From: Capitulum mitella
Taxonomy: Eukaryota; Arthropoda; Thecostraca; Pollicipedomorpha; Pollicipedidae
DNA: 64,000 nt
Assembly (NCBI GenBank): GCA_030062745.1
Contig: CP099843.1
Span: 3,969,001 to 4,033,000 of the forward strand
Direction of reading: 5' to 3'
Part shown: positions 19,701 through 25,700 of the stretch, in pieces
Numbering within the stretch: position 1 is the first letter of the stretch
Layout: each line of letters begins with the position of its first letter
Notes under the pieces: generated by a model
Seen by the model: the letters and a program-made list of their open reading frames with translations, nothing else
Told to the model about the DNA's origin: nothing
The model's database searches: none
Translations under genes and position numbers: made by a program

Positions 19701-22700
19701 TGGGAAATGGAGACCTTCCTCCGCGTACCAGAGGGTGAGCCAGGTAAATGGGAGCCATATGAAGGGAAGTGGTATCCATGGACCCGCCGCGGCTGAAGCA
19801 GGCTTCGGACCGCAGCTGCACGCGGGGGAGTTGGACGGTGCGGGGATGTGGCATTTCGGGATCAGGGAGAGAGAGAGAGAGAGAGAGAGAGAGAGAGAGA
19901 GAGAGAGAGAGAGAGAGAGAGAGAGAGAGAGAGAGAGAGAGAGAGAGAGAGAGAGAGAGAGAGAGAGAGAGAGAGAGAGAGAGAGAGAGAGAGAGAGAGA
20001 GAGAGAGAGAGAGAGAGAGAGAGAGAGAGAGAGAGAGAGAGAGAGAGAGAGAGAGAGAGAGAGAGAGAGAGAGAGCTGTGGAAAGTGTCTGCATCAGAGA
20101 AGAATGTTGAGATAGCTGGTGGCTTACTTACCTTGGATCGGACATTGGGTGCTGTAACGCCCACTTGATGTCGATGGACTCGTGTTGGTCTAGCGTCACA
20201 CTGCGTAATGTTTTCATCATTTACTATTGAAGTCCGTGTGTTTTGTTGCCGCTTGACATTCGTCGAGGAGTAACCATTAGCGGAATACAACTGATCCTCG
20301 TTTTGCGTCGAGGGAGGTAAACGTGGGGTGTTTTTTTGTGCCATTTTGTTTCATAAACTGATTCGAGTGTGTGGACATGGGTAGCGCCTAAATTTGGAAT
20401 CAGGATCCATGCTTCGCTGATCATGCTGCACGGACTCTGACCCCGCCACCCATTGTATCCAAACGTGGAGTAATTTTAATCCAGCCGTGGAAACAATATC
20501 ACTCTGTTTGCCTATCGTTGCGTTCACCTCCACCACCTTGGCCGCCTCGTGACGAGCTAACGTTTTCGATGTCGGGCCAAGTAAAGGCGCCCATTCCGGA
20601 CTTCGAACTCAGCTCCTCACACCGGACTACGATTTCCGGCCCCGGATTCGTTACCCATTGCCGACTGTCCTCCATCGGTTCTGCGGTTCTGCCAGTCGGA
20701 CGGCGTCCGTCGCTGCCCTTGACGTGCGGGCCGAACCGGCGGGTCGGCCGCCCGGTGGTCTCGCTCCTCCTCCCGGTGGAGCGAGCAGCCTCCTCCGGAC
20801 CCGGAACGTCGACAAATCAGCGTCTCCGGCCCGGCGGCGCGGCAGCGGTCGCCGCCGTCCGCCCGCTTTGGAAGGCAAATCGTGTCTGCAAGGCGGCAGA
20901 ATGCGCGGTGCCGCACTGCTAACATCTCGCGGCGGCATTGCTGGCTTTTTCCCGGTCCGTTTGATCCGGGCTGTGCATCGGGATCAGTGTTTGATGCTCG
21001 ATTATTCGGGTCTTGTGCTGGAGTTTATGTTGGAACCAAAGGACCGGTGCCTGATGCTGATTGAAAAGCGGTGCAAGAAAGAACCTTCGACTGTTTGTGA
21101 AGTGGACGTTTCATCCTTCAGACTTAAGTCGATCCCGTGTACATAGTTAACGAATAGAGCGCGGTTGGTCGATTTGATTGTGCCCAGGCATTTTTCATTA
21201 TGAGTCTTGTCTAAAAGACTTCTAATCTCTTCGTTGCCATAGATCGTTATTGCTGCTTTTCTGCCGCGCCCTGGAGCTTTATTCTCATCAGAGCGCTGTC
21301 CTCCTCGTGTCCTCCGGAGCGTCGCGTCGCCTGAGCGCCCGGTCCGTCCGGCAGGTGGTGATAAACGCCGCGCTCGGGTTCGACTCGTACCTGGTGATGC
21401 GCCACGGGTGCCGGCCGGCCGGCGCCGCGCCGCCGCCGCCGGCCGACGGCTGCGACCCGCGCCAGCCGATCGCCGGCTCCCAGCTCGGCTGCTACTTCTG
21501 CAACGACGTGGTGGCGCCGGGCAACGTGAGTAGCCGACGGCGGCGCGGAGGCGGAGCTGGCGGACGTTACCGTCGGGGAGACGGGAGAAGTGGGTGGTGG
21601 AGTCGAACGCGCCGGGACGGCGCGGGCCGGGCCGGCGGTGGGGAATGCCTGCTGCTGGCGGTTTGGGAGGAAGACATTGGCGGTGGTTGGCTGGAGTCCG
21701 GCAGAAGCGACCGTCTCCGTACGTGGGGCTGGAAACTTCAGTGGCCGGCGGCGGCTTGGAAAGAAGGGAACGTTGGTTGGATCATGGTCTAAGTTGTTGG
21801 GTCACGTGGAGGAAAAGAATGTCGAGATGTCGTGTCCCACGCCCCACGCGTGTAAGAAAGACAAAGAACATGCCAATTATGACCAAACAGTTGGGCACAC
21901 GAGTGGTGCACTTGAACCCTGAAGTGGGTTATCGTCGGCGGTGTCAAGCCGTGTGGTGGATCAAGACCGAAATACACTCTCGTACTGCTCAGGAGACGAG
22001 GGTAGAACGGCCCGTATCTCCCACGCGCACTTGATGTGCCGGTCACAGAGTCCCATCTCAGTATCGTGCGGTGAAAAATAGCATGTGCGTCATTCAGCGG
22101 CCTTTGTGCCTAATTCAGCTCGAGTGTCCTGTCTGGTGAGCTTCCGGGTGTCGATAAGGTGTCCATTGCTTGCGTGGGGCTTCAGCGATGTCGGGGTATT
22201 TCTGTAAACGTCGTGTCAGGGTGACGTTTAGCAGAGGAGGGTGGGCTTCGTGTACGCTGATGACATCTGTAGGGTATCGTTTTGTCGGATTTAAGGCTGG
22301 ATGGAACACACCTGGCTCACTAGTGGTTATGCTGTGCGTTCTGTATTAACGCCAGGGGAATATGGAGTTCCGGATGTGGCGTTCCATGGGAGGAACGATG
22401 AAGTTGTGCGTCTACTGAGACGTTTCAGCGCAACTTTACTGTATGGCCAGCGTTTGTGTGTGTGTTTGGACTGACGGACCATCACACGACAATTGCTTGC
22501 CTCGTCAGCTAGCGTTGGACTGTCAGAGGACCACGCATGAACTGCGACAGAATTTCATCAGACTATTGCCTGCCTTCACCTGGCTTCAGAGGACCACTGT
22601 TACTGTGTGTAGACCGTGATGCCGTGGTGTTCCCCGTCAGTCGGTGCGGGACCGTCGGAGCACCAGTGGGACCGTGTGTGGACCGTGGCGCCGTGGTGTT

Positions 22701-25700
22701 CTCCGTCAGTCGGTGCGGGACCGTCGGAGCACCAGCGGGACCGTGTGTGGACCGTGACGCCGTGGTGTTTCCCGTCAGTTGGTGCGGGACCGTCAGAGCA
22801 CCACTGGGACCGTATGTGGACGGTGACACCTTGCTCTCTCCGTCAGTCGGTGCAGGACCGGACGCTGGACCAGCAGTGCACGGTGACCCGGCCCGGCGTC
22901 AGCCTGGTGGCGGCCGGCCTGGCCGTGGAGTTGGCCGCCGCCCTGCTGCAACACCCGCTGAGGTCAGGCGCTGCCGGGCGCTGGACTGGCGAGGTCGCCC
23001 GGAGGTCGGGCGTGTGAAGCTGGAGCTGTTGTGTGGAGCTGGGACGGTGTCCCGGGGTGGGTCGACCCTGGTTGTCTCCTCAGGAAGCGGTATCCGCGTA
23101 GTTAATGGGTTTGTGGGATGGTGGCAAAGGTGTCATCACTAGCCAGCGGTTACATGTTGATTGCTTCCTGCAAGACGGCTGTCTGTCATGAATTGCATGC
23201 TCATGCTGAAAAACTATTGCGCTTTCGGTTGTTTTTGTTTGAATTTCCGTACCAAACTACCCGTTAGTAACATGGCCAGGAAGAATGTTTCATCTGATCT
23301 TGCGATTCGGAAAATTTGACCGGTTTTAAGTCCTGAACTCCCAGGAGTGATCCCTAAATGTCCGTCGGAACGCAGTGGTGCCGGCATATGGTCTGTCGGT
23401 CACGTCAGGCTGCAGCAGTCCAGTCGCGCCGCCAGCCAGGGGACTGTGCCCGACCCCGCTGGTGAAGGCACGCCGTGATCTGACTCCGAGCCGTTCGGTT
23501 AGTCATTTCCCCCGGATATTTTGGTAAAGGTGGAGAGTTGGGCAGACTGCGCCATTTTTGGGCGATGTGGAAGGTGAACTGCTCCGGGCATGGTAGCGTT
23601 CGCGCTCTCATTATTTCCTTCGTAAGACCGGATCCGTTTCCACCGGTCTCCGCCTCGCCTTGCGCCTCTTCCATTGGGCCGTCCAGGATGTTGCTTGGAC
23701 CTTTGCGTTTTTTTTTACGAACCGAGCTGGTTATTGACGCACATTGCGACGTAATGAAGACAGTGTTGCTAGGGAAACGGCGTCTTTTAACGATATATGA
23801 ACACGTTCCCCCCATCGGGGAGGGGAGGGGGCGTCATGGTGCCATTTCTCGTCAGTGCTGGAGCACATGGAGCGTGCACCGGGTCGGCCGACCGGTCCGG
23901 TGCATGCTCGATGCAGCTCACCTCAGGGGACCGCACCGTCTTCCGCTACCGCGAGAACGTCGCCGGCGTGCGCGGGAGGCAGCCCGCGACAGCTCCGACC
24001 CGTTCTTCGGTCGCCGCGTTTTAATCGGCCGTCCCAGCGTCGTGTCCGGCACGCGGTTCGGCCCACTGCCGGGGATCGGTCTGTTCGGCGTGTCCTCGAG
24101 TGTGGCTGGGGATGGCGACAAACTCGTCGGCGCCGTCGGACGAGGTCGTCGTCCGCCTTCGACGGGCCGTCGCCTCGCGTGGCGCCGGCGACGGCCCACG
24201 GCGCCCACGGCCGGGCGGACGACAACTAAGCCCGTGAGGCGCCCGCGCGGGCGGCCGTATTGTCCCGCCGTGCACTCGCCGGAACGCGCTCCGTTTGTTG
24301 CGAGGCCGGGGCTCATTGTGTGCCGAGCCGGCGGCGCAGCTCCCGTCCCGCCCCCCGCGCCGCCGCCGCGGCCGCCGCCGTTTCCGGCCCCTGTAGCGGC
24401 CGCGTCTCGGCCCCGGCGGACCGCCGTGCTGGCCGCACCGGTCGGACGGACGCGGCCGGCCCCGCTGCGGCTTGGAGCCCGGTCCTCCGGTCGCCCGGCG
24501 GCTGCGCTGCGGGGTTCGTCGGCCCGGCGTCCGAATGTTGTGTCCTGTATTCCGACGTCCGAAGTCGTCTCTGCAGCTTCGGAAAAGGCCGCGCACGGTG
24601 GTGACAGTCCGACTCCCGAAGGCACTGTAGCACTGTAGCGACAGTTCCACCTAAGAGGACGGTGCTCTGCAGTAGCAGTCGTTCGTCGGGGGAGGAGGTG
24701 CCCGGCGCGGGCGGCCGGCAGACCGCGGCGGCGGCGGCGGCGGCGGCGGCGGCGGCGGCGGCGGCGGCCGTCCGGAAACGCTGCCTGTCGCGTGGGCCGG
24801 CCGGCCGGACCGCCGCCGATAGCATCAGACCCGCCCCAAATGTGGGCCCGAGCCGGCGGCGCCGCGCCCGCCGCTGGGAGCGGCCGGCCGGGCCGGGCAC
24901 CGCTGTCGGGCCGATCTCCGCCGGTCACGGCCGGGGGCCAGGCAGGGCCGTCTCGCCGCCGCCGACAGGTGGTGCGGAGATTCGGGCGGTCCGCTCGGCC
25001 GCTTTGTGCTAGCGGTGGTGACGCGGCCACTCCCGTTCGCCGGTGTTTGCAGCCGTATATCATTGGTCAGTTACGAGTGCGGCAAGACACCTTAGTGATG
25101 CTATGGGCTGCAGCGTTGTTATGATGGCCATAATTTCCCCTCATTCCAAAGATACTTAACTTGGCCGATCAGTACTTCAGTAAACGCGACGTTTGCATGG
25201 TACGGTGCACTTTTGCGCGATTTCACGAGTCGGCGGAGTTGAAGGTGTGCATTGGGTGAAAAACTTTATGTAACTGTGTCGTTTTCTTGGTGACCTTTGC
25301 TGTGCTAACGATCGCGTACTAACCGTGTGCCCGTTCTGGGAATTTATTGTCGTTATTGGTGTTTTCTTCGTTCTGAACGTCACATCCATGAAACTGCTCC
25401 ATCGTGTGGCATTGATCGCACCCATTTGTGACCGCGGATTTCGTTTCGGTTCCGAGACCTGGTTATCGTTGTTGGTATTTTCTGACTTCTGAGTGCCACC
25501 TCCGTAGCTGGCCTGTGGCGCTGCATTGATCGTGCACGTTTGCACGTCACACGGCAATAAATTTGCACGGCGTACACCGCACCGTATCAAAACCTGTGTG
25601 GAGGCAATGTTTACAGGTAAAAGTTGACGCGATTTTTCGGGTTGTTTTTGTACCGTCTCCTTAGATCCTCGCCGCATGTGACTGGTCGTTCTGGGATGCA

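Follow-up and report, generated by a model that had tools for sequence, protein, structure and literature searches.

A tandem array of splice-junction copies upstream of the catalytic-cysteine exon of an ATG7 gene

What can be expected of a gene in which a splice acceptor, together with the start of the exon that follows it, is repeated in tandem inside the preceding intron? The question is raised by an ATG7 gene on the + strand of a 64,000-nucleotide (nt) stretch of contig CP099843.1, the whole of which is called 'the window' here. The coding span of the gene, 10599..41786, comprises twelve coding stretches, labelled E1 to E12 in this analysis, and the array lies just upstream of E10, the exon that carries the catalytic cysteine (exon J of an initial annotation made from the letters of the sequence). 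We propose, with a probability of roughly 0.8, that a 69-nt segment over the E10 3' splice site was duplicated and expanded into a minisatellite of the type named 'mirage'; the copies would be intronic and normally spliced out, the last acceptor would be used, and the array would be at most a small cost.

The tandem repeat of the E10 acceptor and exon start, reported in the initial annotation, is real according to two detections and to shuffle tests. Tandem Repeats Finder places it at 22605-22860 (period 69, 3.7 copies, 87% matches, score 386), and a repeat search finds the 110-nt stretch 22586-22695 again at +69 (89%) and +138 (84%). A 24-nt core is found at 22631, 22700, 22769 and 22837, that is, with spacings of 69, 69 and 68 nt. 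The array, 22586-22860, divides into four tandem modules in register, of 69, 69, 69 and 68 nt, each corresponding to the last 54-55 nt of the intron, up to and including CAG, followed by the first 14 nt of E10. Three modules are intronic, and the fourth is the genuine E10 junction (Table 1). The four acceptor Gs are where the initial annotation had placed them; its extent for the array was 22612..22862, but the actual start is near 22586 and a likely decayed copy is found further upstream.

This upstream segment, whose score was reached by 12 of 3000 shuffles, is likely to be a fifth junction copy in decay. Similarity tests against shuffles revealed no further junction copies in 21526-22285, 22286-22485, 22963-23300 or 22270-22429. 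Alignment of the unit to the exon had been set beforehand as a test, and the similarity is present: 23 of 24 bases of the junction core are identical to the unit, a score that none of 2000 dinucleotide shuffles reached. It ends at exon base +14, beyond which the copies agree with the exon at 5, 5 and 4 of 22 bases, which is the chance level. A unit taken from more than 14 nt of exon is unsupported, 833 of 2000 shuffles being as good. The array has the form expected from a tandem duplication of the segment that extends from -55 to +14 relative to the acceptor.

Table 1. Positions in the window of the features of the ATG7 gene
Feature	Position	Strand	Details
Duplicated E3 acceptor	11522..11596	+	Decoy G 11534, true G 11576, 42 nt apart, open frame
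Duplicated E4 donor (CTG|GTGAGC)	12713..12981	+	Donor after 12744; repeated after 12807 and 12911; broken after 12973
Intron E9/E10	21526..22846	+	Phase 0, GTGAGT...CAG; unbroken alignment over the junction to PDB Atg7 chains
Likely decayed older junction copy	22500..22534	+	Acceptor G 22508; ungapped 35-nt match to doubled module consensus
Module m0	22586..22654	+	55 nt intron end with CAG, decoy acceptor G 22640, 14 nt exon-like
Module m1	22655..22723	+	Decoy acceptor G 22709
Module m2	22724..22792	+	Decoy acceptor G 22778
TGA in frame from decoys 22640 and 22709	22755..22757	+	Translation from phase-0 preceding exon
Module m3, genuine junction	22793..22860	+	68 nt; true acceptor G 22846 and first 14 nt of E10
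TGA in frame from decoy 22778	22824..22826	+	Translation from phase-0 preceding exon
Exon E10, carries catalytic cysteine	22847..22962	+	TIGR01381, cysteine alignment

The identity of the gene was established by several comparisons. Of 15 rows returned by tblastn with human ATG7, 12 follow one another in order on the + strand from 10599 to 41786, the other three being chance matches (E 3.2-9.8). E5 matches the Pfam family PF16420 ATG7_N (E 3e-14), and the joined E6-E10 match NCBIfam TIGR01381 E1_like_apg7 (E 1.5e-118) with 397 bits, under the whole-protein cut-off of 571 on account of being a fragment; E10 alone matches the same family (E 7.4e-16), likewise as a fragment below that cut-off. 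At this fragment level, the family match covers the adenylation domain and the cysteine exon. Joined E6-E10 also retrieved seven PDB sequences named ATG7 (E 1.5e-84 to 3.7e-83), which we take to be yeast; with the E10 exon alone, no PDB match was obtained at E 0.001. The alignment to these chains runs unbroken over the E9/E10 junction, and the ends of the intron and the start of E10 are therefore those given in Table 1. The cysteine of E10 aligns to human residue 572, in the numbering of the tblastn query. Residue 572 is named as the one bonding LC3/GABARAP and ATG12 (PMC9117662).

Which of the two, exon or intronic copy, was the source? The motif S..DRTLDQ at the start of E10 is common to the PDB Atg7 chains, and the exon start is therefore the likely source of the repeat units; this supports the proposal of the initial annotation that the unit is a copy of the acceptor and start of the catalytic-cysteine exon. 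All three intronic copies hold CGG (Arg) at a codon where the exon has CAG (Gln). Human ATG7 likewise has Arg there, and so the exon itself apparently changed after copying, the Gln codon seeming to have arisen after the duplication. As for the process, we infer slippage or unequal exchange, which would have duplicated the segment (the last 55 nt of the intron with the first 14 nt of the exon) in tandem and then enlarged it into a small minisatellite.

Arrays of this kind are already known from lancelets. There, mirages are tandem minisatellite-like copies of an intron/exon boundary (PMC3087553 and PMC3902484), described in Adh3, in the globins BflGb6 and BflGb9, and in troponin C and PGBD5 (the last two from PMC3902484). 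Splicing is reported to be regular (PMC3087553, PMC3902484), length variation is reported, edge units diverge from inner ones (PMC3087553), and it has been suggested that new introns can arise by way of junction-spanning minisatellites (PMC3087553). As in the lancelet cases, the tandem units of the ATG7 array span a boundary, its copies carry AG signals and its edge units diverge. The unit is 69 nt long, compared to 10-72 nt in lancelet Adh3, about 150-160 in the globins, and 60 and 108 in PGBD5; the gene is different, and probably the host as well. By its structure, the E10 array is a well-delimited mirage: the units span the junction, the genuine junction is itself a unit, and the inner units are more alike, since m1 and m2 differ at 5 sites and pairs that include an edge module at 10-14, a weak comparison given that there are only four units.

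The same differences bear on whether the array, or its copy number, results from mis-assembly. One lancelet mirage was aberrantly assembled in a draft genome (PMC3087553), and the precedent deserves mention; here, however, the modules differ pairwise at 5-14 sites and by an indel, and are thus not copies of one read stretch. We consider an assembly artefact very unlikely.

If the copies were to add residues to the enzyme, one would expect their acceptors to be in phase with the exon, and the initial annotation had so described them. This is not what was found. The decoys lie 206, 137 and 68 nt from the true acceptor, and each of these distances leaves a remainder of 2; the copies share one frame among themselves, but the final interval of 68 nt takes them out of phase with the real exon. 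All three copy acceptors run into an in-frame TGA before E10. A single unit had been credited with such a stop; two units hold one, and each decoy meets one of them (Table 1). Use of a decoy would thus yield a truncated protein ending before the catalytic cysteine, with no inserted residues. Given a stop ahead of the cysteine and further introns downstream, the corresponding mRNA would probably be removed by nonsense-mediated decay. Under the reading that we favour, the intronic copies would normally be removed by splicing, the spliceosome most likely picking the last and pyrimidine-richest acceptor, 22846; any use of an upstream copy would end at a TGA before the cysteine codon, so that the array would be at most a slight burden on ATG7 output, larger or smaller according to the number of copies.

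The strength of the acceptors was estimated with a scoring matrix that is crude. The true site scores 6.7, compared to 5.1, 5.6 and 5.6 for the decoys, and pyrimidines occupy 15 of 20 positions from -22 to -3 at the true site, compared to 12 of 20 at each decoy. At three positions of the tract (alignment columns 39, 42 and 44), a G present in every copy is a pyrimidine or a gap in the true module. When all 72 AGs of the intron are ranked, the true site comes second and the decoys fourth, fifth and seventh. Eight other ATG7 acceptors score 1.2 to 12.2, a range that includes the decoys, which supports the initial annotation in treating these as potential acceptors. The decoys look like plausible but weaker acceptors than the true site.

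Plausible acceptors that lead to stops could also serve as a control. In such a scheme, some condition would bring the copies into use at a fixed rate, sending a share of the ATG7 mRNA to decay and thereby tuning autophagy capacity. Every decoy indeed combines an AG with a partial pyrimidine tract, its score falls among those of the gene's own acceptors, and all three lead to TGA. Stops are nevertheless expected in non-coding copies, the true acceptor outscores the decoys, and lancelet mirages are described as free of aberrant mRNA (PMC3902484). An RNA structure of the array acting as a splice switch was also considered and rejected: 22586-22900 folds worse than its shuffles (z +2.88), and none of 100 shuffles folds less well than it does. 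We therefore hold a regulatory use of the copies to be improbable.

Several observations weigh against the reading in which the copies are simply spliced out. Normal splicing at the array is an assumption. Four of the eight other real ATG7 acceptors score below the decoys, and one AG of the intron, at 21992, outscores the true acceptor. The gap in score between true site and decoys is small, so the matrix cannot settle usage. A TGAY branch-site candidate precedes the true site by 20-21 nt, and the same holds for decoys 22640 and 22778. Finally, six other AGs of the array (22612, 22660, 22666, 22729, 22735 and 22798) share the reading frame of the exon without encountering a stop, that frame being open over the array (open reading frame 22613-23017). 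This last point also speaks for the strong form of the initial reading, according to which in-phase decoys insert repeat-coded residues into the enzyme. These six AGs, however, are not copies of the acceptor and follow poor tracts, with pyrimidines at 6-10 of 16 positions; the best of them, 22612, scores 3.9, and the other five are outside the top 15 of the 72. With all three copy acceptors two nucleotides out of phase and leading to a stop, insertion of residues at the array appears highly improbable.

Other junctions of the gene were then considered. For 21 ATG7 junctions, the acceptors of E4 and E8 being left out as not pinned, a nearby copy was searched for, and at four of them (E10 acceptor, E3 acceptor, E4 donor and E11 donor) none of 200 shuffles reached the observed match. 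The match at the E11 donor consists of GA microsatellite only and was dropped. At E3, the two copies of the acceptor are identical at 28 of 33 bases (0 of 3000 shuffles), and they score 10.2 (upstream copy) and 12.2 (true site); use of the upstream one would insert 14 residues in frame, with no stop. The idea of an in-frame alternative acceptor, put forward for the E10 array, is one that by sequence fits E3 and not E10. The duplication of the E4 donor was matched by none of 1000 shuffles, and an E4 extended to the repeated donors meets an immediate stop. These two companion mirages make the E10 array more than a single curiosity.

Two weaker candidates are not claimed: a mirage of the E6 acceptor (2 of 200 shuffles at first, 26 of 500 in a wider test) and one of the E9 donor (3 of 200, then 16 of 500). 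At the E11 acceptor, the closest resemblance in the vicinity is weak, with a score reached by 15 of 200 shuffles. A 31-nt minisatellite (32335-32608) ends 49 nt before this acceptor, without clear similarity to it, and a long GA microsatellite (32834-32984) lies at the end of E11.

Are junctions enriched for duplications? The comparison was made on 20 junctions, the E4 and E8 acceptors and the E11 donor being set aside for the reasons given above. Duplications were found at 3 of 20 junctions, compared to 21 of 823 grid positions (Fisher P = 0.017, binomial P = 0.014), where the E10 junction was given in advance rather than found by the test and neighbouring grid positions are not independent. 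Once E10 and its 7 grid positions are removed, the figures become 2 of 19 and 14 of 816 (Fisher P = 0.049, binomial P = 0.04-0.08). A placement test gave P = 0.013 (3 of 7 loci) and P = 0.031 (3 of 15), values that are too optimistic because E3, a case discovered through the inspection of junctions, is counted in them. The enrichment at ATG7 junctions, with P about 0.05, is suggestive only. The gene span also contains 11 tandem arrays of period at least 9, and their random placement would cover some junction with a chance of 0.37; one array over one junction is thus not a rare outcome of chance in this gene, which lessens the surprise. That splice junctions are preferred sites of tandem duplication in this genome, with three ATG7 mirages as instances (the in-frame 14-residue alternative at E3 and the dead-end acceptors at E10 among them), and that such duplication keeps supplying splice variation outside cephalochordates, is a tentative and rather doubtful generalization.

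The cases in PMC3087553 and PMC3902484 are all cephalochordate. In the open-access literature, searches partly aimed elsewhere and judged by titles and the starts of abstracts yielded no paper that uses the name mirage for a case outside lancelets. Internal tandem repeats at exon-intron boundaries have been described in human segmental duplications (PMC2812944); those belong to recent primate paralogs, whereas in ATG7 the array is intronic and lies next to a conserved exon. Should the host be something other than a lancelet, the locus raises the question of whether mirages are general in animals. A minisatellite with multiple splice donor sites in a human interferon-induced transcript was reportedly described by Turri et al. 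in 1995 (going by the title); like the ATG7 array it would carry several splice sites, on the donor side in that case and on the acceptor side in ours. More generally, junction-spanning minisatellites put splice-competent sites, potentially variable in copy number, beside constrained exons. Three mirages in one gene, with E3 in frame and E10 a dead end, would make it possible to test directly how frequently decoys are used, and whether selection removes only the harmful ones.

Elsewhere in the window, no second gene was identified among 10 stretches compared to Pfam, of which three matched: two from ATG7, and a reverse-transcriptase fragment on the - strand at 1080-1541 (PF00078, E 2.3e-05, below the Pfam cut-off). 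Another 31-nt minisatellite, at 49721-50243 (17.2 copies), has a unit holding CTGCAG and GAGGTG, possible splice-like signals, in a region where no gene was recognised. A long perfect GA microsatellite, (GA)104.5, is located at 19867-20075. The GC content is 53.7% overall, and 43-63% in 4-kb steps; that of lancelets is near 41%, and their telomeres are made of TTAGGG. Taken with the TTAGG-type repeat described next, this tilts slightly away from a lancelet host; the host is perhaps an arthropod. A foldback element at 3380-3689, whose arms were seen by eye, has a (CCTAA)n loop at 3495-3557, a TTAGG-type repeat with 12.6 copies of CTAAC.

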